A stretch of DNA of 64,000 nucleotides from Lachnospiraceae bacterium (lineage in GTDB: Bacteria; Bacillota; Clostridia; Lachnospirales; Lachnospiraceae). How positions within the stretch are numbered: position 1 is the first letter of the stretch; each line of letters begins with the position of its first letter. Below are positions 39,103 to 58,631 of the stretch, piece by piece. The notes under the pieces are model-generated. The model was not told the origin of the DNA. It made no database searches and was given only the letters and a program-made list of their open reading frames with translations. The stretch is from assembly GCA_029054245.1 (NCBI GenBank), contig JAIDFQ010000041.1, positions 124,001-188,000 on the forward strand. The letters run 5' to 3'. The translations under genes and the position numbers were made by a program.

Positions 39103-40434
39103 CTAACTGACATTCGTTAAATTTTTTATCCAATTTCCTCTGTTTACTTTTATAAATACGGGAACGCATTTGAAAACCTGGTCTGCATTCAGGCATGCCA
39201 CCACCACAACCGGCGACGCCTTGACCACAAATGCCATAAAAAGAGATAAGGGAATCACGATCGTCCATATACAGATGATATCCATTTTCACTACAAAAGA
39301 AGATTCACCGCCGCCTCTGATAATTCCCCCTCCTGTGGGCATCTGATAGGACATTCCCACAATAGCGACGCAAAGAACAATCAAAAAGGCATTTGCCATT
39401 TCCCTTGTGCTCTCTGAAAGCTGATAAATAGAAAGAACGGGGACTCTGATTCCATAAAGAATCATTCCCGAAAGAATGCCCACACATACGAAAAACTTTT
39501 GCAGCCAAAGGGCATTTTTCCTCACAGCATCATAATCTCCCGCTCCTACCCCATTTCCTATAAGGACGGCGGCGGCGGAAGAAGCCCCCAACGCTCCTGA
39601 CTTCACCATCAGATAGATATTAGACGCCACACTGTTGGCTGCAATGGCGGCTTTATCCATATGTCCAAGAATGACCGTCTGAAGCATGGTATTCAGCCCC
39701 CACAGACCTTGCGCTGCCATCAAAGGCAAAGCCGTACGATAATAATCTTTGCTCAGTTCCTTATCCCGCATGAGTAAATCAGAAAACCGAAGTTTCAACT
39801 CTCCACCTTTTAAACGGATAAAAACAATCAACACCATAAGCTCTAAGATTCTGGCAGCAATCGTTCCTATGGCAGCTCCCCTCACGCCCATCTCGGGCAG
39901 CCCAAAACGTCCATAAATCAAAACATAATTGATCCCACAATTGACAAAGAACGTCATCATGGAAAGATAAAGGGCAATCTTTACCACCGCCATGCTTCTT
40001 AAAAGCGCCAGCAATACCTGGGTAATGACAAAGAAAAAATAGGTAAAACGAATCATGCCAAGATAGGCTGTCCCTTCCTTGATAATCATTTCATCATTTG
40101 TAAAAAGCCGCATGGTATGGTCTGGAAAAAGACTTACCCCCACAAACAGCAGCCCTGCAAAAAGGACTGCCGTCTGCATAGCCACTGCGCTGATTCTCTT
40201 CATAGGCGTTGTAAGCCGCTTTCCCCAATACTGACTACAGATCACTACAAGCGCCTCCCCTACAGCAAGGGTAAGCTGCTGCAGCACAAACTGGATTTGA
40301 TTGACAGACGCCACTCCCGAAAGGGATACTTCGCTGTAAGCGCCCAGCATCATATTGTCGGCAAGATTTACCGCCAGCGTAATAATGTGTTGAAGTACCA
40401 GCGATAGATATAATGGAATGAATTTCTTTCCCAT
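39103..40434 (-). CDS. MATE family transporter
   Basis: 443-residue, 12-helix MATE protein of a different subgroup from the neighbouring ones. It starts KFIPLYLSLVLQHIITLAVN and has the LADNMMLGAYSEVSLSGVAS helix-1/2 region. Conserved GGGIIRGGGES lies near residue 365. It is the last gene of the long minus-strand operon, 18 bp after another MATE gene. Role in product export is inferred from position. Confidence 0.8.
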   Translation of the reverse strand: MGKKFIPLYLSLVLQHIITLAVNLADNMMLGAYSEVSLSGVASVNQIQFVLQQLTLAVGEALVVICSQYWGKRLTTPMKRISAVAMQTAVLFAGLLFVGVSLFPDHTMRLFTNDEMIIKEGTAYLGMIRFTYFFFVITQVLLALLRSMAVVKIALYLSMMTFFVNCGINYVLIYGRFGLPEMGVRGAAIGTIAARILELMVLIVFIRLKGGELKLRFSDLLMRDKELSKDYYRTALPLMAAQGLWGLNTMLQTVILGHMDKAAIAANSVASNIYLMVKSGALGASSAAAVLIGNGVGAGDYDAVRKNALWLQKFFVCVGILSGMILYGIRVPVLSIYQLSESTREMANAFLIVLCVAIVGMSYQMPTGGGIIRGGGESSFVVKMDIICIWTIVIPLSLFMAFVVKASPVVVVACLNADQVFKCVPVFIKVNRGNWIKNLTNVS

Positions 40435-40452
40435 TTTCTCCTCCCTTTTTTA

Positions 40453-41811
40453 TCATTCTACCAGGCTTTTTTTCATCCATTTCCCACTGCGGAAACGTAT
40501 CAGCCCATATATTCCTGATGCCACATAACTGATTGGTGTTGCGATAAAAATTCCCAGATATCCCAAAGGCGTATACCATGCCAGGATATAACTGACCACC
40601 ACCCTCACCAGGATTTCAATCACACTGATGGATAGACCTGCCGATGCATCTCCCGCTCCAATAAGCGTACTTTTTGTAAGCCATGCCATACCGCAGAAAT
40701 AGGTGCTGAATGCGGCAGTGATCAAATACGCATACCCAATGTCCCTCATCGCGCTGTCTGCATCCGCCGAAAAAAGCCCGATCAAGAATTTTCCTCCTGC
40801 CACCAGCACGATTGCCGAAAATATGCAATAAATCGTAATAATGTAAAACCCTGCCCAAAAGCCCTTCTTTACCCTCTTTTGCTGACCGGCGCCTACATTT
40901 TGTCCTGCAAAGACCTGCATCGCCTGGGTAATTCCGCCCGGAGGATTCGCGATCAGCCGCTCCAGCTGAATACCTGCATTGTATCCTGCCATCACAAACA
41001 TGCCAAAACTGTTTACCAGATTCTGCAGCAGGATATTTCCAATCGCCATAGTAGAACTTTTCATGGATGAAGGCACGCCGATTCTGGCGGTAAGGATCAA
41101 TATTGATTTGTCGATCTTCATGTCCTTTCTTCCAAAACGAATGACGGGATTCTTCTTAAGCATCAATCCCCAGCTCACTGCCGCCGAACATATAGTGGCA
41201 AGTATGGTGGCGTAAGCAACGCCTTCTACCCCCATGCCAAGCTTCACCACAAACACAAGATTGAGCAATACATTCATGATACTGCACACCACCAATACAA
41301 TCAGCGGCGTTACCGAATCGCCCAGCGCTCTTGAGAGGGAATTTGCCATGTTATATAGAGAAGTTGCCACCTCCCCCAGGAAAATAATCCTAAGATAGAC
41401 AGTGGAAGACTCTAGTACGCCGTTTTCCGGCGTAACATGGATCAACATCAGAAGAGGCTTTGCAAAAATGGCACCCAATATCCCAAATACCAAAGCCATA
41501 CCGGCTATCAAATACAGGGAATTGGTAACGGTGCGTCTCACCTTTTCATAATCCTTTGCCCCATAAAACTGGGCTATGATCACAGACATTCCTTCCGTGG
41601 CGCCCGAAATCAGCATCAGCACCATTGTAGAAATACTTGCAGTGGCGCCAACGGCTGCCAGGGCGCTATCCCCTACATATTGTCCCACGATCACAAGATC
41701 TGCTGTGGTATATAAATTTTGCAGGATCATCGTACCAATCAGCGGTATAGCAAAAAGCAGCATCTCCCTGGCTGGATTACCCACAGTAAAGTCTCTTCTT
41801 GTTCCTGCCAT
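40453..41811 (-). CDS. MATE exporter coupled to deglycosidase pair 1
   Basis: 452-residue, 12-helix MATE transporter. Starts RRDFTVGNPAREMLLFAIPL and has TTADLVIVGQYVGDSALAAV; clearly paralogous to the MATE at 57240 (shared RDFTVG, SRALGDSVTP and GVAYATILAT). Its ATG shares a base with the stop codon of the upstream alpha-subunit gene (TAATG), so the two are translationally coupled. A likely job is to expel the aglycone freed by the deglycosidase; this is inference. Confidence 0.82.
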   Translation of the reverse strand: MAGTRRDFTVGNPAREMLLFAIPLIGTMILQNLYTTADLVIVGQYVGDSALAAVGATASISTMVLMLISGATEGMSVIIAQFYGAKDYEKVRRTVTNSLYLIAGMALVFGILGAIFAKPLLMLIHVTPENGVLESSTVYLRIIFLGEVATSLYNMANSLSRALGDSVTPLIVLVVCSIMNVLLNLVFVVKLGMGVEGVAYATILATICSAAVSWGLMLKKNPVIRFGRKDMKIDKSILILTARIGVPSSMKSSTMAIGNILLQNLVNSFGMFVMAGYNAGIQLERLIANPPGGITQAMQVFAGQNVGAGQQKRVKKGFWAGFYIITIYCIFSAIVLVAGGKFLIGLFSADADSAMRDIGYAYLITAAFSTYFCGMAWLTKSTLIGAGDASAGLSISVIEILVRVVVSYILAWYTPLGYLGIFIATPISYVASGIYGLIRFRSGKWMKKSLVE

Positions 41812-42815
41812 TATGCCTCACCCAAAAGGCGTTTTAACATCATGTGATGTCTTCTGCACTGCTCTACAGGATCCATATAAATATCACAGCCTATATCAAA
41901 ATAATCTCTTTGTCCCTCATATTCGGAAGAAATACATCCTTCCCATCCTATTTCCTGCATAACCTGAATGGGTCCTGCATAGTCGATGGAAGGTTCCTTG
42001 CATTCTTCTGTCATCTCATAGAATTTGCCATGGCAATGCTTGGTATAAGGCAGAACCTCTCTAAGCCATGCCGGATCATCATGAATAGAGCCTTTCAGCC
42101 TCTCGGCTGCTTCCTTTTCAACGCTGCCGCCTCCCAGCTTCTCAATATCGGAATCCTCCAAAGGACATCCTGCCCGATAAGCCTCATCAATTGCCTCTAA
42201 GATTTCCGTCTTCGCCCCTGCCCTTTCATATTTATGTTTGGAAGATAACGACATGCCTACTGTAAAGATGCCAAAATCCACCACAAACCCTGCGGATTTG
42301 GTATTTTTCCTCTGAATCTCTTCCAGAAAATCCTGGGTCCACCAGGTATGGATGCCTCTGGGCGCATGAACCTCTGTGGCGATCTGAACCCCCAATTCTT
42401 CCGCATAGTCAAAGCAGGCAGAAAGAATCTCAATGTCCTCATGCCGTATGATGCCGGTACGATACACAGGAAATCCCATCTGATGCGCAACGTAAAGATC
42501 CTTTCTCGTCCATTCAATGGTTTCCTTTACAGACATATGCCTGTTGGAAAACATGGTGGTAAAGAAATTGGCATCATAAGCAGCCGGAAAAGTACCGTAT
42601 TTTTCCATCCATCCAAACCAGGTATCCAGATCCTTCTGGGACAATACTCTGTCCACACTCCTAAGACTTGGAAGAGGCATCTGATCCGGCAATACCTCAA
42701 TTCCCTTTGCATCGATCTCATTGGCTGTCTTCGCGATACATCCCTCTAAGTCCAGCTTCCCCAAATAATAGTCTTCCTGTAGACTGTATAATGAAACACC
42801 TCTTGTTATAGCCAT
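41811..42815 (-). CDS. C-glycoside deglycosidase alpha subunit 1 (TIM barrel)
   Basis: 334 residues of the xylose-isomerase-like TIM-barrel family, in the branch whose members act with a DUF6379 beta subunit to split the C-C bond of 3-keto C-glycosides. Candidate metal and catalytic residues lie in TEVHAPRG (Glu, His; residue ~143), VVDFGIF (Asp), KHCHGKFYEM (His) and SSEYEGQRD (Glu). Known relatives bind Mn(II) through such a Glu-Asp-His-Glu set. It starts 28 bp after the beta-subunit gene. A plain sugar epimerase role is the alternative. Confidence 0.75.
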   Translation of the reverse strand: MAITRGVSLYSLQEDYYLGKLDLEGCIAKTANEIDAKGIEVLPDQMPLPSLRSVDRVLSQKDLDTWFGWMEKYGTFPAAYDANFFTTMFSNRHMSVKETIEWTRKDLYVAHQMGFPVYRTGIIRHEDIEILSACFDYAEELGVQIATEVHAPRGIHTWWTQDFLEEIQRKNTKSAGFVVDFGIFTVGMSLSSKHKYERAGAKTEILEAIDEAYRAGCPLEDSDIEKLGGGSVEKEAAERLKGSIHDDPAWLREVLPYTKHCHGKFYEMTEECKEPSIDYAGPIQVMQEIGWEGCISSEYEGQRDYFDIGCDIYMDPVEQCRRHHMMLKRLLGEA

Positions 42816-42842
42816 AGATTGCTCCTTTCAAAACTCTTTCAT

Positions 42843-43232
42843 CTATATTGTAAATTCCGCGTAAGCAATACTGCCAAAGCCCTTGGGCGCATAGATGACG
42901 TCAACCGCCACATCCACATCGATTCTGTGCTTTCCCTTGGAAAGTCCGCCTTCCTTCAGCACCCTCACCTGGAGCTTTGCGCCATATTCCCAGAAATGCC
43001 GGTAACAGGTTATGATCTCGGACATTTTAAATTCCTCTCCATCCTCTGTTATAATCCTCATATCTTCCTGAGGAACCTTAGCTCCATCGATTTTGAGAAT
43101 AATATGTTCAATTTGACTGAGCGGAGCTCCCATATAATAAGGAATGCGAAGTCCCACCTGACAGCCTGCGATCTTGCCGTCTACCGTTACATTTTCCATT
43201 TTGTTATCTGCAATGATATATTTTTCGTTCAT
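42843..43232 (-). CDS. C-glycoside deglycosidase beta subunit 1 (DUF6379)
   Basis: 129-residue all-beta protein of the DUF6379 family, the small subunit of C-glycoside deglycosidases. Features: CQVGLRIPYYMGAPLSQIEH (residues ~24-43) and the C-terminal GGLSKGKHRIDVDV, which matches GGLSKGHHKLGI in the second beta subunit. In characterised enzymes the beta subunit completes the active site at the alpha interface. It lies directly before alpha 1 and after the isomerase gene. Confidence 0.78.
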   Translation of the reverse strand: MNEKYIIADNKMENVTVDGKIAGCQVGLRIPYYMGAPLSQIEHIILKIDGAKVPQEDMRIITEDGEEFKMSEIITCYRHFWEYGAKLQVRVLKEGGLSKGKHRIDVDVAVDVIYAPKGFGSIAYAEFTI

Positions 43233-43266
43233 AACCCCACCCTTTCAAAACCAAGTCAATCCATGA

Positions 43267-44100
43267 TTACCAACCAAGTATTTTCAAATATTCCCTGCTC
43301 CTTCTTGCTGCCTCTAAAGGCGACAGTTCATAATGCTCATCCTGCTCCACCACGACCCATTTAGAGCCAGCTTCAAGCGAAGCCTCCAAAATCGGCTCCC
43401 AAATCTGCTGACCAAATCCTACCGGTCTGAATTCAAATATACCGGCATCCTCCTTTGACTCTTCTGTCTCTATTCCTATCAGCTTATAAAGATTTTTGGG
43501 ATTTCCTTCCTTGATGAAATCTTTCAGATGAACAATTTCACATCTTTCCCCATATTTTTTTACATAAGCTGCCGGGCTCTGTCCCGCCACCTTGATCCAG
43601 CACACATCCGGCTCAACCATAAGAATGTCCGCAGGTATCTGGGTATAAATATCATCAAAGCCAAAGCTTCCATCAGGCAACGTTACAAACTCAAAGTCAT
43701 GGTTATGGTAAAGAAGTTTGATGCCATGATCCTTCATGACCTTTCCAATCCGTTTCATCTCTTCGATCACTTTGGGATAGCCCGGCGTATTATGACGATA
43801 CTCCTCTGGAAGATACGGCACCACCACATAATCTACCCCAATCGCCTTATAATCTTCTGCCACCTTCTCGGGATCTGCCATCATTTCCACCAAAGGGACA
43901 TGGGCGCTGATCGGGATAAGTCCCACTTCATCAAGTATTCTCTTGATATCGGCAGGGGCAATCCCATAAAGTCCTGCCAGTTCCACACCGTCATATCCCA
44001 TATCCTTAATCTGCTGCATCACATTTTGAAAATTGTCAGGCGTATTTTCCAAAAGATCACGAAGTCCATACACCTGAATACCAACTGGAAGTCTGTTCAT
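43267..44100 (-). CDS. Sugar phosphate isomerase/epimerase family protein
   Basis: 277-residue TIM-barrel protein with MGYDGVELAGLYG (residues ~33-45), YHNHDFEF (metal- or base-type His/Asp), VEPDVCWIK and VHLKDF, a set shared with IolE- and YcjR-type epimerases. It is distinct from the two alpha subunits and shorter. In this operon it may process the keto-sugar or enediolone released from the glycoside; the exact reaction is not derivable from sequence. Confidence 0.75.
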   Translation of the reverse strand: MNRLPVGIQVYGLRDLLENTPDNFQNVMQQIKDMGYDGVELAGLYGIAPADIKRILDEVGLIPISAHVPLVEMMADPEKVAEDYKAIGVDYVVVPYLPEEYRHNTPGYPKVIEEMKRIGKVMKDHGIKLLYHNHDFEFVTLPDGSFGFDDIYTQIPADILMVEPDVCWIKVAGQSPAAYVKKYGERCEIVHLKDFIKEGNPKNLYKLIGIETEESKEDAGIFEFRPVGFGQQIWEPILEASLEAGSKWVVVEQDEHYELSPLEAARRSREYLKILGW

Positions 44101-44124
44101 AAAATTTTCCTCCTTCTATCTGAC

Positions 44125-44159
44125 ATTGCCACCACTTCCTTAGGGCAAGCGGTGGCAAT
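44125..44159 (-). other. Intercistronic hairpin
   Basis: ATTGCCACC (44125-44133) / GGTGGCAAT (44151-44159), perfect 9-bp stem with a 17-nt loop and no U-run, between the GFOR-like oxidoreductase and isomerase genes. Probably a stability or processing element in the long operon. Confidence 0.5.
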
Positions 44160-44168
44160 TTCTGTTTA

Positions 44169-45425
44169 TCAATAAGCTACATCAAATTTGTGCAGGGAAC
44201 CATTGATCTCCATCTCTGGAACATACAAGGTAGGAGATTTTGCAATGATTTCATCCAGCGCAACTTCTCTGCCTTCCTCTTGGGAAAGGAACATACCGTC
44301 TGTAATCAAAAGCTGCTCTAATGCGATCTCTGGCGTATTATACCTTGTGGTATCATCTAAAATGCCCAGCTTGTAAGCCAGCCACATGCACTGATTGTCA
44401 TTATACAGCATCATTTTGGGATCTAACCTTTCCTCCACTATGCCGTTGGCATCACAGTTTAACTCGGTGTTTATCACTCTTCCACCCACATTTCCATAAA
44501 ATCTTAATTCCGGCTCTCCCCCAAACATCTTTCTCTGTCCAGGATTTCTGGCAAATTTTCCGCCTACGGTATCCGTATCCGTAAATTCCAGACCACCTTT
44601 CGTACCCAAGATATATGTCATGGCATACTCCTTGATGTTGTTTGCCGAAGTGGAAAGGAAATGGAATCCTACTCCGTTTTCAAATTTTACAAAACCGTCA
44701 CAAATATCTTCCACACCAAAACCATCGGCATTTGTAATCAGTTTCTGGTCGATTTCCACCTCTCTGCGGCAGAATCCCGACACCGATTTTACTTTCGGCC
44801 TTCCCAGTACAAAAAGGATCTGTCCAATCACATAGATTCCTAAATCAATGGAAGGTCCATGTCCGGCAATTCTCCGAGAATAAAAGTCTGTTGTGAACTC
44901 CGGGAGATCATAGCCGGGGCGGCGTCTCATGGTACACTGCTCCAAGTTTACATAATAGGGCGTACCGATGTCGCCATTTGCAATCATATCTCTGGCTGCT
45001 CTGGTCTGAGGTGTCATAAGAGAGCTGATCTGTACATGAAATTTACGTCCCAGCTTTGCTGCACAGTCCACCATCATTTTGGCGTCATGGTAGCTGGCTG
45101 CAGCAGGTTTTTCACAATAACAGTCAAATCCGGCTTTCATGACTTCAATGGAAATAGGGGTATGGAGATTGTTATGTACACACACGTCAACGGTATCAAT
45201 ATCATCACGCTTTAAAAGCTCACGATAATCGGTATAAAGATCCTTTTCCTCCATGCCATATTGTTCTCCCCATGCCTTCAGCCTCTCAGGGATGACTTCC
45301 GCAACAGCCACCACCTTCGCAGTAAAGCCAAGCTTTTCAGCATTGCGCTGAATGTTGGAATAAATCACCATATGTCTGTGGGATATCATCCCACCGCCTA
45401 TAATCGCAACTCTGATTTCTTTCAT
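44169..45425 (-). CDS. Gfo/Idh/MocA oxidoreductase 1 (GFOR-like)
   Basis: 418 residues from ATG 45425 (CAGGAGG upstream). Rossmann motif VAIIGGGMISHRH (residues ~5-17) and the catalytic-lysine motif CEKPAAAS (~95-102) are present. The usual D-x-G-x-H active-site segment reads SIDLGIYVIG, i.e. Tyr in place of His, as in glucose-fructose oxidoreductase. It may oxidise or reduce a pathway sugar with a bound nucleotide. It is the less typical of the two oxidoreductases in the island. Confidence 0.82.
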   Translation of the reverse strand: MKEIRVAIIGGGMISHRHMVIYSNIQRNAEKLGFTAKVVAVAEVIPERLKAWGEQYGMEEKDLYTDYRELLKRDDIDTVDVCVHNNLHTPISIEVMKAGFDCYCEKPAAASYHDAKMMVDCAAKLGRKFHVQISSLMTPQTRAARDMIANGDIGTPYYVNLEQCTMRRRPGYDLPEFTTDFYSRRIAGHGPSIDLGIYVIGQILFVLGRPKVKSVSGFCRREVEIDQKLITNADGFGVEDICDGFVKFENGVGFHFLSTSANNIKEYAMTYILGTKGGLEFTDTDTVGGKFARNPGQRKMFGGEPELRFYGNVGGRVINTELNCDANGIVEERLDPKMMLYNDNQCMWLAYKLGILDDTTRYNTPEIALEQLLITDGMFLSQEEGREVALDEIIAKSPTLYVPEMEINGSLHKFDVAY

Positions 45426-45457
45426 TTTCTTTCCTCCTGTTCCATTTCTTTTTGGCA

Positions 45458-47110
45458 TCAGTCACCATATATATTGGAGAAGTTTGTAAGTCCAAGTCCC
45501 CAAAGCTCAATATTTTCAATACCGGGACGGGTCAGTACAAAAGTTTTGGTTGTATACAGTCCGATGGATACATATTCTTCTCTGAACATCTTCTGCAGTT
45601 CAGCGTATGCTGCCTTTCGTTCTGTCACATCAGCAAGTGCATAACAGCGCGCTGCAATCTCGGAATATTCTTCGTTCTGATAACCACAACCGCCCATAAC
45701 TGCTGAGTAATCATACTTGATACCATCCGTGCATCTTACCGGCTCTGAGTAGAGTGCATACTGCTGAGTGGAAGCATACATGTCAAAGTCCCCTTCTGCC
45801 AGCGCTGCAAAATGAACCGGTGTTTCCGCAAGTTCAAATTCCACCTCAATGCCTCCTGCACGAAGCTGTTCCTGTACCATGGACATCATCGGTGTGACAG
45901 AACTGCCTCTCATTCTAAGTGTAAGACCGTTTGCATATCCTGCCTCTTCCAAAAGAGCCTTTGCGCCATCCACATCCACCACTGCCGTATCGGATTCACA
46001 GATACCGTCTCCCATAGGTCCATTGGTGGCAATTACGGTATCACAAAGTTCTCCATAGCCTGCGTTAGCTACCTGGCGGAGCGCATTTTTATCGATCAAA
46101 AGGGTAACTGCCTGTCTTACCCTTACATCCTCTAAAGGACCGCCCTTTCCGCTGTTTAAGAAGATCGTGCTTACTTTGTTGTCATCCAGAAGGACTGCAT
46201 TGACATTCGGATCTGCATCATAGGTGGCAAAATCAGAAAGCAGCATATCCGTAGCAATGTCAACGTCTCCCGACTGAACAGCTAATGCCCTTGCATTGGT
46301 ATCATTGATGAACACATATTTAAAGCCTGCATAGTAGCCCATATTATCCTTGTCCCAGTAATCCTCATTGCGCTCCAGCTCGATATATTCACCGGGAACC
46401 CATTCTTTCAATTTATATTTGCCTGTGCCTGCACCTGCCAGATACTGAACCTGTGCGCCTGCGCCTCCCGCTGCCTCAAGCTCGGTTTTGTTTACCACTT
46501 CAAAGTTATTAAAACCAAGCATTTCAAATGCCTGCGCATAGGGCTCATTCAATACCAGGACCATATTATAGTCGTCCTCAATCTCAAACTGGGCAGGGTC
46601 ATAAAAACCGTACACGTCAGAAGCCATAGCTCCCAGTTTTCCCTGTTCAAAAAGGTACTGGATATCAGCTGTAGTCAATTCTTCTCCGTTGTGGAAACGA
46701 ACGCCTTCCCGGAGGGTGATATGAATATGCGTATCATCCAGATACTCCCAGTCCGTACAAAGACCTGTCTTTTGCAGGGACACATCAGAGTAATTGGCAA
46801 GCACCAAAGGTTCATACACATTTCTTAAAATATACTGAACCGGATTTCCAATAAAATTAACGCTGGGAATTAAGGTGTTCGGCTCTGAGGCAAGCGCAAT
46901 GGTAATGATCTTGTCACTTAATTCTCCCGCTGCAGGCGCCGCTGCCACATCTCCTGGTGCCGTTTCATCTCCCCCGGACTGCTGGGTAGTTTCTGCAGTA
47001 CTTTCTCCCGAAGAACCTGTCTGATTGGAAGCATCAGGAGAGCTGCCGCATCCGGCAAGCGCCGATGCCATCATAGCCACAAGTAAAATGATTGATAATC
47101 GTTTTTTCAT
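45458..47110 (-). CDS. Solute-binding lipoprotein, family 5
   Basis: 550-residue extracellular substrate-binding protein of the oligopeptide/nickel-type ABC class. The lipoprotein signal ends in ALAGCGSS (lipidated Cys near residue 21), followed by a Ser/Thr/Gly-rich linker. Family-5 features are VYEPLVLAN, the signature region WEYLDDTHIHITLREGVRFH (residues ~112-131) and LERNEDYWDK. Position in the island suggests a glycoside or oligosaccharide ligand rather than peptide, but this is inference. It lies 63 bp after the second ATPase. Confidence 0.88.
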   Translation of the reverse strand: MKKRLSIILLVAMMASALAGCGSSPDASNQTGSSGESTAETTQQSGGDETAPGDVAAAPAAGELSDKIITIALASEPNTLIPSVNFIGNPVQYILRNVYEPLVLANYSDVSLQKTGLCTDWEYLDDTHIHITLREGVRFHNGEELTTADIQYLFEQGKLGAMASDVYGFYDPAQFEIEDDYNMVLVLNEPYAQAFEMLGFNNFEVVNKTELEAAGGAGAQVQYLAGAGTGKYKLKEWVPGEYIELERNEDYWDKDNMGYYAGFKYVFINDTNARALAVQSGDVDIATDMLLSDFATYDADPNVNAVLLDDNKVSTIFLNSGKGGPLEDVRVRQAVTLLIDKNALRQVANAGYGELCDTVIATNGPMGDGICESDTAVVDVDGAKALLEEAGYANGLTLRMRGSSVTPMMSMVQEQLRAGGIEVEFELAETPVHFAALAEGDFDMYASTQQYALYSEPVRCTDGIKYDYSAVMGGCGYQNEEYSEIAARCYALADVTERKAAYAELQKMFREEYVSIGLYTTKTFVLTRPGIENIELWGLGLTNFSNIYGD

Positions 47111-48130: not shown

Positions 48131-48132
48131 GC

Positions 48133-49179: not shown

Positions 49180-49193
49180 AACCCCTGTCCTCC

Positions 49194-50099: not shown

Positions 50100-50101
50100 A
50101 A

Positions 50102-51085: not shown

Positions 51086-51142
51086 ATATGCGCTCCTATG
51101 GTTTTGTCATCAGTTTCCAGTAATCTGTTTTCTCTAAAAGTA

Positions 51143-52192
51143 CTATTCAAGAAAGATCGCCTCGCCCGTCTTTGCAGAACGCTTGACCGCCTCCATAACG
51201 GTCAGTACCCTCCTGACGGTAGGAATCTTAACAAGCAGCTCTCCCTGCCCATTTATGACATCCTTGAAATTACGGTAAAATTCCAATACATCTGACTCTA
51301 TCTTTGGGAGAGGTTCTTCCACGATTCCGCCGGGCGGCACAGGCGCAAACTGCCTTGTAGGACCTGCCTCTGTCTCCGTAATTTGGGGCGGAAGTTTTTC
51401 CAGCATCTTTCCCGTCCTGTAAATGGCGCCCTTTCCTCCTCCGAGATTTTCCACGATCATGGTTCCCTTATCGCCTCCGGCAAGCCATCTGGGCTGATAT
51501 TTGAGAATATAAGTGGACAGCTCTATATGCACCGTTACGCCATTGTCAAGTTTCATGATGATTTTGAAATAGTCATCCACCTCTTCATGCAGCACATTTT
51601 TCACATCTGCATAAAGAGATTTGATTTTTGCATCCGGCATCATAAAAAGGATCTGGTCGATTAGATGAACACCCCAGTCGTACATCATGCCGCCGCCATA
51701 TTTTTTATACAAATGCCACTCATGCATATAACCGTTACCAGAGTGAAGCTTCGATTCAATTGTAAAAATTTTTCCCAGGGTTCCGTTATCATAGGCATGC
51801 TTGATGGTAAGCATATCCTTGTCCCATCTGCGGTTCTGATGGGCTGTAAAACAAACCCCTGCCTTTTTACAGGCTTCCTCCATTTCATCTAATTCAGCAA
51901 CGTTTAAAGCGGCAGGTTTTTCCGTAATCACATGCTTCCCTGCTGCGGCAGCTTTGATTGCCATTTCTTTGTGCAAATGGTTTGGCACCGTCAAAATCAC
52001 TGTATTGACCTCCGAATCTGCCAAAAGCTCCTGCACCGAATGATACCCTTTTATCCCCTCCTGTTTTGCCTCCTCTACTCTTTCAGGAAGAATATCACAG
52101 GCCGCTTCTACCTTTACACCGCCCTTTGGCGCATTCTTGGCATGATGCTTGCCCATTCCGCCAAATCCAATAATTCCTAATCGAATATCCAT
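51143..52192 (-). CDS. Gfo/Idh/MocA oxidoreductase 2 (DgpA-like)
   Basis: 349 residues from ATG 52192 (CAGGAGGG upstream). Rossmann motif LGIIGFGGMGKHH (residues ~5-17), catalytic TEKPAALN (~94-101), NRRWDKDML (~124-132) and an intact GGGMMYDWGVHLIDQ carrying Asp and His. The latter two motifs resemble the oxidoreductases that make 3-keto C-glycosides before deglycosylation, so this is the best candidate for the first catabolic step. It is the first gene after the regulator's terminator and probably leads the 13-kb operon. Confidence 0.82.
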   Translation of the reverse strand: MDIRLGIIGFGGMGKHHAKNAPKGGVKVEAACDILPERVEEAKQEGIKGYHSVQELLADSEVNTVILTVPNHLHKEMAIKAAAAGKHVITEKPAALNVAELDEMEEACKKAGVCFTAHQNRRWDKDMLTIKHAYDNGTLGKIFTIESKLHSGNGYMHEWHLYKKYGGGMMYDWGVHLIDQILFMMPDAKIKSLYADVKNVLHEEVDDYFKIIMKLDNGVTVHIELSTYILKYQPRWLAGGDKGTMIVENLGGGKGAIYRTGKMLEKLPPQITETEAGPTRQFAPVPPGGIVEEPLPKIESDVLEFYRNFKDVINGQGELLVKIPTVRRVLTVMEAVKRSAKTGEAIFLE

Positions 52193-52300
52193 AACGCCCT
52201 CCTGTTTTTTCGTATTTTTGTGCATTTTTACCATATATTATTTTGTTTTTCAAAAAAGCACTGAAAATACGCATATTTTTTTCTCTTTATCTTACTTATT

Positions 52301-52329
52301 ATTATAAATCTTGCCGGAAATGAATCTAT
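52301..52329 (-). promoter_or_regulatory. Candidate promoter of 13-kb catabolic operon
   Basis: Minus-strand -10 TATAAT (52301-52306) is perfect; the corresponding -35 region (ATAGAT, 52324-52329) is poor, as expected for an activator-dependent promoter. It sits between the AraC gene terminator and the oxidoreductase, about 100 bp before its start. An AraC-type activator site may overlap. Confidence 0.45.
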
Positions 52330-52394
52330 GGCGCAAATTGACATTTTACTACAAACTTATTGGGTTTTATGAGGTTACCATAGATAAAGCAAAA

Positions 52395-52433
52395 GGCTAT
52401 GTCAAAAACAAATATGATGTTTTTGACATAGCC
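52395..52433 (-). terminator. Terminator after AraC gene
   Basis: Perfect 15-bp stem GGCTATGTCAAAAAC / GTTTTTGACATAGCC with a 9-nt loop, followed on the minus strand by TTTTGC. It separates the regulator from the oxidoreductase-led operon. Confidence 0.8.
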
Positions 52434-52448
52434 CCCAAAAGCATGCTG

Positions 52449-54836
52449 CTATCTCCGAAACATAATCTCAATCAGCCCAAAACCATTTGCAAGGACCTCC
52501 AGTTCCAGTTCCATCATTCCTTCCATTACATTTTTTCTTACAAAATACCGTTTTGGAATACTTACATTTTCAAGATATTGCTTATCTTCCTTGGGCATAT
52601 CCATAAAGCCGCCAATTCGCTTCCATTCGTCCAGTATGCTGCCGCTGTATTTATCCACATGCTGAAAACGGACATCATAATAACCGTCCATCAACCCACT
52701 TAGTTTAAATTTCAGCTTTATGGAATGACTGTCTTCAAACGCCTCATGAAGATCTTCATAGCGAAGGGTGTCCTCTTTTTTTAAATAGATACTTTTGAGC
52801 AGCGCCTTTAAATTATGATAAATAATGACATAGTTGCCATGACCATTGGTGGTAATCATATAATTATTGTTTTTTTCAATCAGCTTTCCATAAAGGCGCT
52901 TCAAAAAGCCAAAGGCATAAGCAGCAGGCTTAAAAAACCCATCCCTCGTCATAATTCCAGATCCTCCATGGAGAATGCCGTCAGAGTCAAAGTCTTCCGT
53001 AAAAGCATCGGTACACTGCCAAAAGCATAGCTGATCCACTTCGCCTATGGCGTCAATGGCATTCTTGATGATATAGGCGCCTCTATAGACCGTGTCATTT
53101 AAGATATTCCGGCTGGAAATCGTATTGTTCCAAAGATCCAGATAAAGTTTTTTGTGTGAAGCGCCGCAGTCCTCCATCATTTTCCTGATTTCTTTCAAAC
53201 TGTCCCGCATAAAATTGATGTTTGTCTCCAGCGGCGGTAAGGATACCCCGTCCGGTTTGTAAGGAAACATGGCAAAAGAAATAAAATCTGAATACGCCCC
53301 AAGCTTTTCCTGTTCCTTAAGCTTAGCCGGCAGCTCACCGAGCATAGAACTTACAAATTCTCCTCCACCAAATAGGGCATTGGGCGCATATTTCTTCACC
53401 GCCTTACTGCTATCTGCGTATTTCTGAGGCTTAAACCATTCATACCACTGTTTGTCCCACGGATAAGGACTCCACATTTCAAATATCCACGTGTTGATCT
53501 CATCCTCCCCATAATAAATCACCAGATGGTTCATAAAACTGTCTATCAGCTGCTTCCACTGCTGTTCATCATATGTCAGGATAAGGCTCTGATGAGCGCC
53601 GGAAGGCATGATACTGTTGCCTAGACCACGGATAATATTTCTGGGCTTAGGCCCTATCTGAATAAACGGCTTCAAATCATTGTTAAGCAAAAAGTTAATG
53701 CAGTCATCCAGACGGCTGAAGTTGGGCCGGTCTCCCGAGATACGCGGCATGATCAAAAGCTCGTCCTGAAAGATTCCCCAAAACCTTACATATTTATATC
53801 CAAGTTCTCGCTTTGCCCGCAGAATATGATGCTGAATCTTATTGTTCAAAAGCTCTGCGGCAGTTCCCACATTGATCACATCCTGCCAGGGCTTTACATA
53901 CGGCGTATATTTCCCTACAAAAGAAGAAATCTTCACCTCAGGCGTCCCTTTATCCGTCATCAAATGGGCAAGACTGTTTTCCACGCTCACCAGCGCCGCT
54001 TCCTTTAAAGTGCTTTTATCTTCTTCGCTGACCCTTTCTTTGTCCCTGAACCGACGCCTATAGGCAGTAGGGGAAACCGCATAGGTTTCCTTAAAAGCCT
54101 TATTAAAAGCTGCCAATCCTGAAAATCCATTGTCATTGGCAATGCGGAGTATGGACTTATCGCTGTTTTCCAGCTCTTCCACAGCCCTTAAAAGACGTAC
54201 CTCGTTGATATATGCCCTGAAATTTTTTCCAAGGCTTTTCTTAAGCACCCGTGACAAATGAGAGTTGGTAATATAAAGCTTATCCGCCATATCCTGAAGC
54301 GTTATCTGCTTGTCATAATTTTCCCAGATAAACCGAATGACTTCATCGGTGTACTTCTGATAAGAATCTGTTTTCTCATCCCGCTCATTTACCTTGCGGA
54401 AATACTTGCCCAGGTATCCCAATATCAGATAACACTTGGAATACTGATCAAATTTGTCTGAATTTCCTCCTCGAAGGCAGCTCCTGATCAGCTCGATCAT
54501 GTAGACCCGAAGCTGACGATAGCGGGTATCATTCCTTTCCGCCTGCGTGCTGTCAAGGTCTATCTCTATATGTTCTCCTCCAATTTCTTCTTCCAGCACC
54601 GATGGCTCCACAGATATCCGAAACAAAATGCCAGGACGAAGGGCAACACAGCTGATAGAACACCCTGCATTCAGAAAATACATATCTTCTTTTTGCAGTA
54701 TGATATTCTGCTCTCCCAGCGTAATGCACAATTTCCCGTCAATGACATATAAAAGCTCCATCCTAGGGCTGTTCCTATGTGTTTCGCTTTTCATCTGCTC
54801 GATTCTGAACCAAACTCCCAAACCAGGCATAGGCAA
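52449..54836 (-). CDS. AraC-type regulator fused to GH39-like domain
   Basis: 795-residue protein. Residues ~1-110 look like a cupin sensor (MELLYVIDGKLCITLGEQ). Residues ~154-262 are the double helix-turn-helix of the AraC family (ITLQDMADKLYITNSHLSRV ... GFSGLAAFNKAFKETY). Residues ~300-680 resemble a GH39 beta-xylosidase TIM barrel (RFWGIFQDELLIM). The usual WNEP acid/base motif reads FEMWSPY near residue 454, and the nucleophile region reads LDLWNNT, so hydrolysis is unlikely and a sugar-sensing role is inferred. The ATG follows AAAGGAGG. Last gene of its transcript. Confidence 0.85.
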   Translation of the reverse strand: MPMPGLGVWFRIEQMKSETHRNSPRMELLYVIDGKLCITLGEQNIILQKEDMYFLNAGCSISCVALRPGILFRISVEPSVLEEEIGGEHIEIDLDSTQAERNDTRYRQLRVYMIELIRSCLRGGNSDKFDQYSKCYLILGYLGKYFRKVNERDEKTDSYQKYTDEVIRFIWENYDKQITLQDMADKLYITNSHLSRVLKKSLGKNFRAYINEVRLLRAVEELENSDKSILRIANDNGFSGLAAFNKAFKETYAVSPTAYRRRFRDKERVSEEDKSTLKEAALVSVENSLAHLMTDKGTPEVKISSFVGKYTPYVKPWQDVINVGTAAELLNNKIQHHILRAKRELGYKYVRFWGIFQDELLIMPRISGDRPNFSRLDDCINFLLNNDLKPFIQIGPKPRNIIRGLGNSIMPSGAHQSLILTYDEQQWKQLIDSFMNHLVIYYGEDEINTWIFEMWSPYPWDKQWYEWFKPQKYADSSKAVKKYAPNALFGGGEFVSSMLGELPAKLKEQEKLGAYSDFISFAMFPYKPDGVSLPPLETNINFMRDSLKEIRKMMEDCGASHKKLYLDLWNNTISSRNILNDTVYRGAYIIKNAIDAIGEVDQLCFWQCTDAFTEDFDSDGILHGGSGIMTRDGFFKPAAYAFGFLKRLYGKLIEKNNNYMITTNGHGNYVIIYHNLKALLKSIYLKKEDTLRYEDLHEAFEDSHSIKLKFKLSGLMDGYYDVRFQHVDKYSGSILDEWKRIGGFMDMPKEDKQYLENVSIPKRYFVRKNVMEGMMELELEVLANGFGLIEIMFRR

Positions 54837-54847
54837 AACCTCCTTTG

Positions 54848-55183
54848 CTAATGTTGATGAAGTGATTTGTGAGATAAAATCTTTCCGTCTTTGATTTCAA
54901 AAAAACCGGCAATCCGAAATAGTGTTTTCCCCTTAGATCTTGCTTTTGCATATACACCTACCCTGGGTTGCTTTGTATCTGCAAAGATCTTCACCATTTC
55001 TATGGCGGCGCCGGCATTGGCAAAGAAATCCTCATTTCTTTTAAGGAACGCCTCCGGTCCTTTCCCTTCAAATCCGGGCGTAATCTCTAAAAACTCTTCT
55101 AAAAAATAGTCCCTGATTCTATCTGTTTCTCTAGCATTTAATATTACATCATACATTTCTTTTATCATTTGTTCTTCTTTCAT
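54848..55183 (-). CDS. NTF2/SnoaL-like small protein A
   Basis: 111-residue protein with a cone-shaped NTF2-like fold signature: helices in the first ~45 residues, then strands ending RIAGFFEIKDGKILSHKSL. SnoaL-like proteins often act as aldol-type catalysts or isomerases, or bind small ligands. It lies 11 bp before the AraC gene and 54 bp after a second NTF2-like gene. Function in the island is unknown. Confidence 0.65.
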   Translation of the reverse strand: MKEEQMIKEMYDVILNARETDRIRDYFLEEFLEITPGFEGKGPEAFLKRNEDFFANAGAAIEMVKIFADTKQPRVGVYAKARSKGKTLFRIAGFFEIKDGKILSHKSLHQH

Positions 55184-55237
55184 TTCTAGTCCCTCTTTTA
55201 TAAAATTTTTTCTTTTTTTTGTAAATATTTGCGTTCC

Positions 55238-55570
55238 CTAATTAGAAAACACATCCCAATGCTCGCAGAGCTGCCCCCGACTATTAATGCGGTAAAAATC
55301 CACCACCGCAAAAGATCCTCTCTGATTTTTCAGTATGACCGCCGCCATATCTTCTCCCAATACAATATCTTCAATTTCAATGTTAAACTTTTTGCCGGAA
55401 GCAAATGCAGCCGCAAAAGTATTGATGAATCCTTCTCTGCTATCCTCCACGCCGGGGTTGTGCTGGATATAGTAGGGCGCTATGATTTTTTTTGCATAGT
55501 CTATATTTTGATTGTGAAAAAATTCCTTGTAAAAATTTCTAATATCTTCCTTTGTCAGCTTTTCTGTCAT
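55238..55570 (-). CDS. NTF2/SnoaL-like small protein B
   Basis: 110-residue SnoaL-like protein with the characteristic YYIQHNPGVEDSREGFINTF (residues ~38-57) and a C-terminal VVDFYRINSRGQLCEHWDV. The YIQHNP histidine is the family's usual catalytic-pocket residue. It is not closely similar to its neighbour, so it is not a recent tandem duplicate. The ATG follows AGGAGG. The gene starts after the terminator of deglycosidase pair 2. Confidence 0.75.
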   Translation of the reverse strand: MTEKLTKEDIRNFYKEFFHNQNIDYAKKIIAPYYIQHNPGVEDSREGFINTFAAAFASGKKFNIEIEDIVLGEDMAAVILKNQRGSFAVVDFYRINSRGQLCEHWDVFSN

Positions 55571-55661
55571 TTTCCTGTCCTCCTATGTATTGCTGTTATT
55601 TTTACTCTATGGTAAGAGACCTCCATTCTTTCGCGTCGCAAATCCTCTCCATAGAACAAAC

Positions 55662-55689
55662 ACAGGGAGGCAGACATCTGCCCCCCTGT
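55662..55689 (-). terminator. Hairpin/terminator after deglycosidase pair 2
   Basis: ACAGGGAGGCAGA (55662-55674) / TCTGCCCCCCTGT (55677-55689), one mismatch in 13 bp, then GTTTGTTCT on the minus strand. The U-tract is interrupted, so termination may be partial, which would allow read-through into the NTF2-AraC genes. Confidence 0.65.
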
Positions 55690-55704
55690 ACTTACTAATC
55701 GTTT

Positions 55705-56745
55705 TTATTCTCCAATAAGCCTTGCCATCATCTCATGGTGACGCCTTACCTGCTCTACCTCGTCTACAAAATCATCCATAGTACGTTCCTGACGGGAACG
55801 CTGTCCCTCAAATTCTGTACACATATAGCCATCCCAATTGTTCTTTTTCAGAACCTCTATCACTTCTTCATAAAGAAGCGCCGGTTCCTCATATTGCCCG
55901 GGTTTACCAGGTATTTCCGTCATATCATGGCATTTTCCATGAATAGAAAATACATAGGGTAATATCAGCTCAAGATCTTCGGGCGCCGCATGCATTTTCC
56001 ACATAAGCGTACGTTTTTCCTCCTCGGAAAGCCTGCCCCCAAATTTCTTTTCCACTTCTGTAGACAATTCTCCTAAAGAAACCTCTTTCATGAGGGCAGT
56101 AATCTCACTGGCAAGTCCCTGATCCTTCATATCCCTCAACATTCTCTCCACCGAATCAAGATGCGGCCCTCGCGCAAAGATACCCATATCAGGAACGAAA
56201 CCAACATGCTTTGTGCCTGTCTTTTTAATAAATTCTACCGTATCCATTACGGCAGTTCCAGGGCTGTCACAAAACAGTCCCTTGATTTCCGGATTTGGTC
56301 TGATGGGAATTGGCGCATGTATCTCCCATGCAATCTTTACATCCAGCTTAACAGCCGTATCAAGGGCACGCTCTGTAACCTCCACCGGCAGTCCCGTCAT
56401 GGTCCTTATATGCTTAAAGCCCATGTCATGAGCCAGTTGTAAGTCCAGCTTAATCAGTTCCGCCGCTTCGGCTTTATTCATAACGTGATCCCTAAAACGC
56501 ATTGTATCAAGAAAACAGTCAAGAGCCACCGGTGTTAAATCATAGCGGGCCATCGTATTCGCCCAATCTGCCAAAAACGCTCTCGACGGGAAAGGATATC
56601 CGGGCACAGTAGCCTCATTAATGATTTCCACGCCATCACATTTTAGGTTATCATGCAGTTCTTTACACATATCATGATAATCCATTTTTCCAAAATACTG
56701 CGCCTGCTGGTAGCTGTAAAATGAAACGCCTCTTTTAATAGCCAT
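55705..56745 (-). CDS. C-glycoside deglycosidase alpha subunit 2 (TIM barrel)
   Basis: 346-residue paralogue of alpha 1, with the same layout: RGVSFYSYQQAQYFGKMDY at the N-terminus, WEIHAPIPI (Glu, His), VPDMGIF (Asp), SIHGKCHDM (His) and CTEFEGQRS (Glu). N-terminal RGVS.YS.Q. and C-terminal QVRRHHEMM match alpha 1, but the barrel loops differ and it is 12 residues longer, so a different aglycone is plausible. It starts 14 bp after its beta gene behind AAAGGAG. Confidence 0.78.
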   Translation of the reverse strand: MAIKRGVSFYSYQQAQYFGKMDYHDMCKELHDNLKCDGVEIINEATVPGYPFPSRAFLADWANTMARYDLTPVALDCFLDTMRFRDHVMNKAEAAELIKLDLQLAHDMGFKHIRTMTGLPVEVTERALDTAVKLDVKIAWEIHAPIPIRPNPEIKGLFCDSPGTAVMDTVEFIKKTGTKHVGFVPDMGIFARGPHLDSVERMLRDMKDQGLASEITALMKEVSLGELSTEVEKKFGGRLSEEEKRTLMWKMHAAPEDLELILPYVFSIHGKCHDMTEIPGKPGQYEEPALLYEEVIEVLKKNNWDGYMCTEFEGQRSRQERTMDDFVDEVEQVRRHHEMMARLIGE

Positions 56746-56759
56746 TTTTATCTCCTTTC

Positions 56760-57206
56760 TTAATCCACAACCATATCATAGTAGTAAACTTCCGTCTGTT
56801 TAAAAGGCATATCTCTGGGATCCGGCGGATTATCAATCCACTCTTGGTCATGAGGCTGCCATCCATATTGCACAAGGACCCCCTGCATAATTCCCAGCTT
56901 GTGATGCCCCTTTGAAAGCCCTCCCGGCTTGTCCACATACACGGTTCCAAATTCTCCATAATCCCAGTGCTCCCAGACTGCCTTGGCAATTTCATCAAAA
57001 TCCCTCGGCGGTTTTCCATTGATTTCAAACTTCTGAAGATTTCTTGGATATTCCTCTCCATCCAAATCAATGTAATACCCATTGTGAAGACTTAAAAAGC
57101 ACCCCCTGTACTCTGCGATACGGACATCGAACTTAAAACCAACTATTTCGCCGTCCCTTACCACGTTTTGAAGACTGTTTTCTCTTACCAGAAAATTGTC
57201 AAACAT
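56760..57206 (-). CDS. C-glycoside deglycosidase beta subunit 2 (DUF6379)
   Basis: 148-residue DUF6379 protein. Shares FKFDVRIAEYRGCFLSLHNG (residues ~24-43) and GGLSKGHHKLGI with beta 1, but has a C-terminal extension of about 20 residues (PRDMPFKQTEVYYYDMVVD). The pairing beta-then-alpha with short spacing is identical to pair 1. Confidence in the family is good; the true substrate is unknown. Confidence 0.78.
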   Translation of the reverse strand: MFDNFLVRENSLQNVVRDGEIVGFKFDVRIAEYRGCFLSLHNGYYIDLDGEEYPRNLQKFEINGKPPRDFDEIAKAVWEHWDYGEFGTVYVDKPGGLSKGHHKLGIMQGVLVQYGWQPHDQEWIDNPPDPRDMPFKQTEVYYYDMVVD

Positions 57207-57239
57207 CCTTTGCTCTCCTTTCTTTTTGTTTATTAAATT

Positions 57240-58631
57240 TTATGCTCCGACATTTGCGGAGGCAGATTCCCGATCCTCTTTTACAATTCTCTTTTTCTTC
57301 CATTTGCCGCTTCTGTAACGGACAACCGCATAGGTGCCCGATGCCATCCACCCAATGGGTGTTCCTAAAAATACCCCAATATAGCCAAGAGGCGTAAAAT
57401 GAGAAAGGAGATAAGCGCTGCCAATCCTTACGGCAAGCTCTATCACCGAAATATAAACGGCAGCAGAAGCATCGCCTGATCCGCTCAAGGTATAACGGAC
57501 CGTAAATACAATACCGCAGAAGAATACGCCTATTGCCGTCACCACCAGGTAATGATAGCCAATCGTTACGGTAGCGGGCGTCTCTGTGAAAAATCCCATT
57601 AAGAACCTTCCAAATGCAATCAGCACAAACGCCGAAAATACAGAATACACTGCTATGATCTTAATACTGGCTTTTAACCCCTGTCCAACTCGCTCGAACT
57701 TGCCGGCGCCAACGTTCTGACCTGCCAGCACCTGCATTCCCTGGGATATTCCCCCAGGCGGATAAGAAATAAAAGCCTCTATCTTCGTTGCCGCAGCATA
57801 TGCCGCCATAACAGGAAGCAATGGCGTGTCAAAGGCATTTACAAGTGCCTGGACAAGAAGAATCCCGATGGTGACAGTGGAAGACTGAAGCGCTGATGGA
57901 AGACCTATTCTAAGTACCAGCTTTGCCATTTCTCCATCCGGACGGATTGTACTTTTGTCAGGATGTACAATGGGCATTTTCTTCCAGATAATCCCCCAGC
58001 AGACAATCGCTGAAAGAATCGTTGCCAATATGGTTGCATAAGCCACTCCCGGAACTCCCATATGGAAACCAGCCACAAAAAGAATATTCAAAAAAATGTT
58101 TAGTATGCTGGTAACAATCAACACGATCATGGGAGTTACCGAATCTCCCAAGGCTCTTGACATGGAATTTCCCATATTGTAAAGTGCCGTGGCGACAGAA
58201 CCTGCAAAGATAATCACCAAATAGGATGTGGCATAGCCAAGCGCCTCACCCGACACATTGATCATCATCAGCAGCTCTCTGGCAAACACCATCCCTATTA
58301 TGCCAAATACAATCGCCATTCCCACAATCATGTATAGACCTGTCGTGATCGTCTTCTTTACTTTTGTTTCATCCTTCGCGCCTATATACTGTGAAAGCAC
58401 CACTGCCATTCCCTGTGTGCATCCGCCAATCAGCATCAGAACCACATTTGTAACACTTCCGCAGGTACCCACTGCTCCCATTGCCGTATCACCCAAATAC
58501 CTGCCCACAATCAGCGTATCTGCCATATTGTACAGATTCTGCAGCAGCATGGATAAAACAAGAGGCCACGCAAAAATCAATAGCTGTCGTCCGGGATCTC
58601 CTACTGTAAAATCCCTCCCTTTCCTGTTCAT
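57240..58631 (-). CDS. MATE exporter linked to deglycosidase pair 2
   Basis: 463-residue, 12-helix MATE transporter paralogous to the one at 40453. Begins GRDFTVGDPGRQLLIFAWPL and has NMADTLIVGRYLGDTAMGAV. The charged C-terminal tail (KKKRIVKEDRES) is a little longer. It is first in the operon MATE-beta2-alpha2, a mirror of beta1-alpha1-MATE. The ATG follows AGGAGG. Confidence 0.84.
   Translation of the reverse strand: MNRKGRDFTVGDPGRQLLIFAWPLVLSMLLQNLYNMADTLIVGRYLGDTAMGAVGTCGSVTNVVLMLIGGCTQGMAVVLSQYIGAKDETKVKKTITTGLYMIVGMAIVFGIIGMVFARELLMMINVSGEALGYATSYLVIIFAGSVATALYNMGNSMSRALGDSVTPMIVLIVTSILNIFLNILFVAGFHMGVPGVAYATILATILSAIVCWGIIWKKMPIVHPDKSTIRPDGEMAKLVLRIGLPSALQSSTVTIGILLVQALVNAFDTPLLPVMAAYAAATKIEAFISYPPGGISQGMQVLAGQNVGAGKFERVGQGLKASIKIIAVYSVFSAFVLIAFGRFLMGFFTETPATVTIGYHYLVVTAIGVFFCGIVFTVRYTLSGSGDASAAVYISVIELAVRIGSAYLLSHFTPLGYIGVFLGTPIGWMASGTYAVVRYRSGKWKKKRIVKEDRESASANVGA

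Follow-up and report, generated by a model that had tools for sequence, protein, structure and literature searches.

Comparison with described deglycosylation systems

The described systems closest to the one considered here are the Dfg system (DfgABCDE) of Eubacterium cellulosolvens and the Dgp system (DgpABC) of Dorea strain PUE, both of which include the alpha/beta lyases called C-glycoside deglycosidases (CGDs). Our subject is a cluster of minus-strand genes at positions 39103-58631 of a 64,000-nucleotide stretch of a Lachnospiraceae genome (the window: G000:C36:124001-188000, from a genome of 3.85 Mb that is 98% complete; G, C and L numbers designate genomes, contigs and loci). The cluster carries two CGD pairs (alpha1/beta1 and alpha2/beta2), a probable third lyase that we call TIM3, two Gfo/Idh/MocA oxidoreductases (GfoA and GfoB), an Opp-type importer and MATE pumps (Table 1), and it quite probably serves the uptake of plant glucosides and their deglycosylation, with oxidation and beta-elimination taking the place of hydrolysis.

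For the Dfg operon, dfgABCDE, DfgAB is reported as acting on C-glucosides and DfgCD on O-glucosides (PMC11170127, PMC8398226). The window resembles Dfg in combining a CGD alpha/beta pair with a TIM barrel like the O-glycoside eliminase AtOGE and a Gfo/Idh oxidoreductase, a combination seen side by side in 6/13 DfgA-like loci of other genomes. However, the window alphas (334 and 346 residues, against 290 for DfgA) are only distant relatives, and the window adds the Opp importer, the MATE pumps, SnoaL-like proteins and a second CGD pair. DfgC and DfgD were reportedly characterized by Braune and co-workers. The Dgp system likewise has a Gfo/Idh 3-oxidoreductase and an alpha/beta lyase with the same active-site residues, but only one such pair, and the window alphas match DgpC (7bvr_A) at just E 4e-28 and 4e-24. 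Strain PUE is reported to deglycosylate puerarin only (PMC11170127). The same source gives four dgpBC sets for Catenibacillus scindens, six for C. decagia, three each for C. faecavium and C. tixagia and none for C. picagaria. Like the window host, C. scindens and C. decagia are Lachnospiraceae with several lyase sets, accompanied by DfgCD homologues (PMC11170127), but the dgpA of C. scindens is reported not to adjoin dgpBC, whereas in the window oxidoreductases and lyases share one tight gene run.

More distant is the AtOGE pathway of Agrobacterium tumefaciens. TIM3 keeps the metal and catalytic residues of AtOGE, but oxidation in that pathway is carried out by the flavoenzyme GlycDH instead of a Gfo/Idh protein, and the accessible part of its description mentions no CGD. 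The soil systems CarA and PurA use an FAD-dependent oxidation step. Two CGDs with different site preference, AgCGD1 and AgCGD2, occur together in Arthrobacter globiformis (PMC8563793), which, unlike the window host, is a soil actinobacterium. A literature search, covering few subscription journals, found no paper that places an Opp importer in the same operon as a CGD pair and an AtOGE-like lyase. The cluster repeats known parts; as an instance of a system known from related bacteria it is a good one, if not much out of the ordinary.

The two C-glycoside deglycosidase pairs

An earlier note on this DNA had proposed two separate CGD pairs, and a profile search bears this out. Both betas score far above the Pfam cut-off of 27.6 bits for PF19906 (CGDB/DUF6379; scores in Table 1), a profile with a match in none of the 14 control genomes. 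The alphas find their best solved relatives among CGD chains; each matches eight distinct solved chains, and the DUF6379-type part of all eight entries is among the beta matches. Against the Pfam xylose-isomerase-like TIM barrel profile (cut-off 31.1 bits) alpha2 scores 31.4 and alpha1, at 30.2, falls just under. Each alpha gene adjoins its beta gene, at a distance of 27 bp in pair 1 and 14 bp in pair 2. We take 8qvc to be a Deinococcus CGD, 8qrz a Streptomyces CGD (the source of the name ScCGD), and 8tcd, 8tcs and 8tct to be gut 3-keto-glycoside lyases.

In AgCGD2 the metal ligands are E147, D179, H269, K271 and E305 and the catalytic residues H149 and E307 (Mori and co-workers, PMC8563793). 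The corresponding E148, H150, D180, H262, K264, E298 and E300 are kept in alpha1, and alpha2 has the same residues at the same columns; the spacing in the window alphas (ExH, D 32 residues further on, HxK, ExE) is that of AgCGD2. All seven are also kept in both alphas of a second island in the same genome (contig C45, see below). As to the betas, a change of Tyr39 in the PuCGD beta abolishes C-glycoside cleavage and barely affects O-glycoside cleavage (Bitter and co-workers, PMC10628242). The equivalent residue, placed by the offset between aligned ranges against solved chains and not residue by residue, is Tyr33 in both beta1 and beta2, and the column is Tyr in 104/104 beta open reading frames (ORFs) examined. 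By their sequences, both pairs are thus CGDs whose active site has been kept.

Departures in the alpha columns are few. The catalytic His is replaced by Asn in seven ORFs, all of them short partial matches that are probably other TIM barrels, and by Asp in one CGD alpha (L079 3363-4511); the Lys ligand is Thr in one CGD alpha (L063), and the His ligand is Gln in one partial match (L044 11894-13018). Two single ORFs (L053 7920-9455 and L079 1392-2876) are matched by the beta profile as well as by the alpha profile and, on that ground, are probably fused CGDs; the solved chain 8qrz likewise matches both subunits.

The two pairs are only 36% (alphas) and 29% (betas) identical to each other. In an alpha tree of 104 rows, among which are three solved chains and 97 further CGD-type alphas, with four TIM3 proteins as outgroup, alpha1, alpha2 and the two second-island alphas fall into four separate groups, with long branches flagged by the program. 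The window alphas lie with the other CGD alphas and not with the AtOGE-like outgroup, but outside the group of EuCGD, PuCGD and ScCGD, the solved CGDs included, and the branches are long. The low identity and the separate, supported groups rule out a recent duplication of one pair, and two lyases so deeply different would fit different aglycones.

A probable third lyase resembling AtOGE

The gene at 43267-44100, listed in the earlier note as a further isomerase, does encode a TIM barrel, but TIM3 resembles the O-glycoside beta-eliminase AtOGE. The AtOGE structure 8bvk is among its best solved relatives (E 1e-20, residues 3-255 aligned). H132, D165, H191, E252 and H134 of TIM3 correspond to H132, D163, H189, E233 and the catalytic H134 of AtOGE, and E40, H67 and E163 to the second-site E39, H66 and E161; the roles of these residues and the eliminase activity are taken from PMC10628242. 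All eight TIM3 positions are invariant across 13 aligned sequences, TIM3 itself counted. Its sole NCBIfam match, to the inosose dehydratase IolE (TIGR04379), reaches 50.5 bits against a cut-off of 290, and IolE identity is rejected on that score. TIM3 is probably an O-glycoside beta-eliminase of the AtOGE type and, with the residues kept, the cluster probably cleaves both O- and C-glucosides by a single 3-keto beta-elimination chemistry.

The gene order around DfgA-like alphas bears on the identity of TIM3. Among the named-genome loci, thirteen carry an alpha with 88-94% identity to DfgA (the closest among the loci examined, in L071, at 94%), and in 6/13 of them (L028, L065, L077, L078, L081 and L082) a TIM3 and a Gfo/Idh gene directly adjoin the DfgA-like pair, in the order alpha-beta-TIM3-Gfo or TIM3-Gfo-alpha-beta. 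In L069 and L075 the TIM3 and Gfo/Idh genes lie in the same gene run with other genes between. From this order TIM3 may correspond to DfgC. Among the genomes around G766, 6/116 (G766 counted) have alphas close to DfgA, none of them identical to it.

Oxidoreductases, importer and pumps

The nearest solved structure to GfoB is DgpA2 (9m37; 320.7 bits, E 1e-94), whose molecule name mentions an isoorientin complex. GfoB is a probable glycoside 3-oxidoreductase of the DgpA type, in keeping with the part in the 3-keto step that had been proposed for it. For GfoA the nearest solved relatives are more remote: DgpA1 (9m3d) at 98.2 bits and DgpA (7xr9) at 87.5 bits.

The Opp gene order of the window is the same in L008, L061 and L079 and, over the stretch covered, in L011. 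The last of these keeps importer, GfoA and CGD pair 1 together, as OppC-OppD-OppF-SBP-GfoA-beta-alpha (SBP, solute-binding protein), with an alpha 60% identical, and L054 keeps MATE-beta-alpha-OppB. The three MATE pumps previously listed are all there, but a fourth MATE-like gene, on the plus strand beside the cluster, had been missed; its protein is 24% identical to that of the MATE gene at 40453.

A second island in the same genome and the wider distribution

The genome has four CGDB genes, two in the window cluster and two on contig C45, 6.15 kb apart. The order on C45 is beta-alpha-GfoA-TIM3-Gfo-lactonase-beta-alpha-MATE; the GfoA-TIM3 neighborhood of the window is repeated there, and the C45 TIM3 is 78% identical to that of the window. 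The island comprises L005 12603-17001 and L006 1-7577, with two Gfo/Idh genes, a seven-bladed lactonase and a MATE-like pump. Upstream of it are two small proteins, one with a weak cupin match under the cut-off, and an IS110-family transposase (L005 2369-3583, about 9-10 kb upstream). A similar arrangement, beta-alpha-GfoA-TIM3-Gfo-beta-alpha, is found in Hungatella hathewayi DSM 13479 (L016), a locus in which no MATE match was seen. Both this second island and the AtOGE-like lyase had been overlooked in the earlier note.

We used 80 CGD loci from named genomes. They are the 80 best among 88 retrieved by an alpha profile into which the window's own proteins had gone; many are on short contigs, and the shares describe that sample only. 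Two to four CGDB genes are present in 17/80 loci, which rules out rarity of two pairs per cluster. CGDB occurs in 4/37 genomes of the genus, in 11/144 relatives (10 above the cut-off) and in 7/391 genomes of the class (6 above the cut-off, four with one copy), the window's own genome being counted in each. At least two copies are present in 7/10 of the relatives above the cut-off, on different contigs in G004, G072 and G105. With these numbers, with an importer-GfoA-CGD order that recurs in L011, with a second two-pair island in the same genome and with four Catenibacillus species carrying three to six dgpBC sets in print (PMC11170127), the suggestion that two pairs with a dedicated importer are unusual finds no support. 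In the same-genus G009 the distance between two CGDB genes is 13.96 kb; in the window it is 13.97 kb. As separate observations, G520, of the same class and only 2.0 Mb, has eight CGDB genes on eight contigs, and an Oscillospiraceae genome from sheep has four CGD beta and four alpha genes within about 9 kb (L068 3531-12595).

At E 1e-10, matches are found in 51 of the 80 loci for GfoA, 45 for GfoB, 33 for the AraC-GH39 regulator and 14 for TIM3; for each MATE adjoining a CGD pair the figure is 14/80 and for the MATE at 39103 it is 4/80. For such large families these counts are raw occurrences and not enrichment. Relatives of SnoaL1 occur in 4/80 loci.

Regulator and transcription

The AraC regulator is confirmed by its HTH_18 domain, and to it can be added a C-terminal part that aligns with GH39 beta-xylosidases. 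Where solved GH39 enzymes have W-N-E and T-E, the regulator has W-S-P and D-L, and two glutamates, presumably the acid/base and the nucleophile, are replaced. An active GH39 enzyme fused to AraC is ruled out by this replacement; the protein is likely a non-catalytic sensor of a glycoside. Its best NCBIfam match, AryK (176.1 bits), is well under the cut-off of 850.

The genes fall into two runs. From GfoB through the importer, SBP, GfoA, TIM3, beta1 and alpha1 to two MATE genes, the intergenic gaps are -1 to 68 bp, with the oppF start set at an internal ATG (48130), and the upstream run MATE-beta2-alpha2-SnoaL1-SnoaL2-AraC is also tight, save for 134 bp before SnoaL1. Between them, after the AraC gene, is a 214-bp gap (52235-52448). 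This holds a 19-pair hairpin and a promoter-like site, and the cluster may therefore be transcribed as two units, each containing a CGD pair. Promoter-like sites in the region number 44, against 38.7 (standard deviation 6.3) in shuffles, and terminator-like sites 16, against 16.0 expected; since both counts are at the shuffle level, the case for the two elements comes only from where they lie and from a stem that L061 retains. Most of the inverted repeat GGCTATGTCAAAAA/TTTTTGACATAGCC, 3' of the AraC gene, is also present in L061; besides a terminator, this repeat could equally be an operator for AraC. ATGTCAA occurs once more, about 85 bp past the first such stretch.

Proposed pathway and alternative explanations

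The identity of the genes, their intact active-site residues, their tight clustering and the fact that other genomes share parts of the arrangement are plain to see; the chemistry of C3 oxidation, elimination and redox cycling is carried over, by analogy, from papers on the homologues. The Opp-type importer would take up the glycoside, and a DgpA-like Gfo/Idh/MocA enzyme, most likely that at 51143-52234, would oxidize the glucose at C3 using bound NAD. Of the resulting 3-keto compounds, the C-glycosides, with different aglycones, would be split by the two CGD pairs and the O-glycosides by the AtOGE-like TIM3. The released 2-hydroxy-3-keto-glucal would be hydrated to 3-keto-glucose, whose reduction to glucose would regenerate NAD+ and close the redox cycle; such coupling through 3-oxo-glucose has been reported for DgpA (PMC11239390). 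The MATE pumps are possible exporters of the aglycone, and the AraC-GH39 protein is the probable sensor of the glycoside. The substrates, the pairing of oxidoreductases with lyases, the direction in which the MATE pumps work and the part of the sensor are here what we infer.

Several points weigh against this scheme. PF06439 (3-keto-disaccharide hydrolase/hydratase), matched in 4/14 control genomes, has no match in this one, which leaves the hydration step without a known gene in this genome. (PF18089, phloretin hydrolase, has no match in the genome and none in the controls either, and is uninformative.) EuCGD, ScCGD and a PuCGD fragment form a tree group of their own (support 96/90) with none of the genome's four alphas, so that substrates are not transferable from these three enzymes. 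PuCGD cleaves a 3-keto O-glucoside as well (PMC10628242), and membership of the CGD family is thus no proof that C-glycosides are the natural substrate. As for TIM3, it and the Gfo/Idh gene lie about 8 kb from the DfgA-like pair in L074 and were not seen in L071, L072, L073 and L076 over the stretches covered; with matches in only 14/80 CGD loci, over the stretches covered, TIM3 is outside the core CGD system.

The required hydration could itself suggest another role for TIM3, as the hydratase that converts 2-hydroxy-3-keto-glucal to 3-keto-glucose and not as an O-glycoside eliminase. Besides the lack of a PF06439 match, it is perhaps relevant that the hydratase proposed for A. tumefaciens is likewise annotated as a sugar phosphate isomerase (PMC10628242), and that the only NCBIfam match of TIM3, if far under its cut-off, is to a dehydratase. 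However, both the sequence and the residues of TIM3 match AtOGE, a demonstrated eliminase, whereas the hydratase proposed there is larger, at 41 kDa (PMC10628242), and DfgCD, to which TIM3 and its neighbor may correspond by gene order, is reported to deglycosylate O-glucosides. The hydratase role seems to us possible but doubtful, and an eliminase the better description.

It could also be that the main substrates of the CGD-like pairs are 3-keto O-glycosides, or 3-keto sugars of another kind, with C-cleavage a side activity, or absent, in such deep lineages. The O-glucoside activity of PuCGD and the position of the window alphas outside the group of the three characterized alphas both agree with this, and the authors of PMC10628242 themselves ask if enzymes so widespread can be squared with C-glycosides being scarce in nature. 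Nevertheless, the beta tyrosine needed for C- but not for O-cleavage is kept throughout its column, and the operon already holds a separate AtOGE-like O-lyase; we consider such a function unlikely and C-glycoside cleavage the better explanation of the two pairs.

A bolder extension of the scheme would start from the four CGD lineages, each long separated from the others, that the two parallel islands carry. It would see in them a modular form of beta-elimination, with a constant O-lyase core (AtOGE-like plus Gfo/Idh) in each island, to which interchangeable C-lyases are added, and with a SnoaL-like protein instead of PF06439 doing the hydration or enolization of 2-hydroxy-3-keto-glucal; as a whole this strikes us as improbable. 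Finally, a common catabolic operon for sugars or inositol, its members having CGD-like folds but no role in plant glycosides, as the IolE- and IolG-like scores of some members might suggest, is highly improbable, given that these scores stay far under their cut-offs (that of IolE as above, and 128.7 bits against 355 for IolG) while the two CGDB proteins far exceed theirs.

Gene layout and surroundings

Every gene named in the earlier note is present as an ORF on the minus strand between 39103 and 58631 (Table 1). Pfam matches cover the ten enzyme, SnoaL and regulator proteins, SBP and the MATE proteins of 39103 and 57240. Among the closest named relatives found, alpha1 is 98% identical to that of Lachnospiraceae bacterium IMSAGC_005 and 97% to that of an uncultured Lachnospiraceae genome. 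The GC content of the cluster does not stand out from the rest of the window; a foreign island by composition thus finds no support, and "island" refers to gene content only. Beyond the cluster (58965-63922) are a 954-residue protein with many DGxxxLxDG-type repeats and no Pfam match and then a large membrane protein that has the look of an RND/MmpL transporter.

Table 1. Features of the cluster and its immediate surroundings (window positions)
Feature	Position	Strand	Remarks
Fourth MATE-like gene, beside the cluster	37668-39029	+	family inferred from matches in common with other MATE proteins
MATE pump gene	39103-40434	-	PF01554 124.3 bits; downstream of pair 1
MATE pump gene	40453-41811	-	54% identical to MATE 57240; 1-base overlap with alpha1
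CGD alpha subunit, pair 1 (TIM barrel)	41811-42815	-	nearest solved chain 8qvc_A, E 7e-50
CGD beta subunit, pair 1	42843-43232	-	PF19906 106.7 bits; nearest solved chain 9m3a_B, E 1e-17
TIM3, AtOGE-like TIM barrel, probable O-glycoside beta-eliminase	43267-44100	-	aligns with 8bvk (AtOGE)
GfoA, Gfo/Idh/MocA oxidoreductase A	44169-45458	-	PF01408; DgpA1 9m3d and DgpA 7xr9 nearest solved
SBP, importer solute-binding protein (SBP_bac_5)	45458-47110	-	PF00496 205.3 bits
oppF, oppD, oppC, oppB importer genes	47174-51085	-	ORFs named from sequence
GfoB, Gfo/Idh/MocA oxidoreductase B, probable glycoside 3-oxidoreductase	51143-52234	-	DgpA2 9m37 nearest solved
Terminator-like hairpin 3' of AraC gene	52392-52436	-	19-pair stem; stem kept in L061
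Promoter-like site in gap after AraC gene	52405-52377	-	
AraC-type regulator with degenerate GH39 domain, probable glycoside sensor	52449-54836	-	HTH_18 and Glyco_hydro_39
SnoaL/NTF2-like protein 2	54848-55183	-	PF12680 31.0 bits, cut-off 27
SnoaL/NTF2-like protein 1	55238-55570	-	PF07366 42.7 bits, cut-off 28.4
CGD alpha subunit, pair 2 (TIM barrel)	55705-56745	-	nearest solved chain 8qvc_A, E 2e-40
CGD beta subunit, pair 2	56760-57206	-	PF19906 119.1 bits; nearest solved chain 9m3a_B, E 3e-13
MATE pump gene upstream of pair 2	57240-58631	-	PF01554 171.5 bits

Implications

C-glycosides resist ordinary glycosidases, and it is for the gut bacteria that open them to decide if dietary and medicinal flavonoids, isoflavones and xanthones become active. 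With its four divergent lyase pairs, of which two stand beside an O-lyase in an importer-linked cluster, this genome is a good test bed for asking how the lyase lineages divide aglycones and glycosylation sites among themselves, and how the hydration step is carried out.

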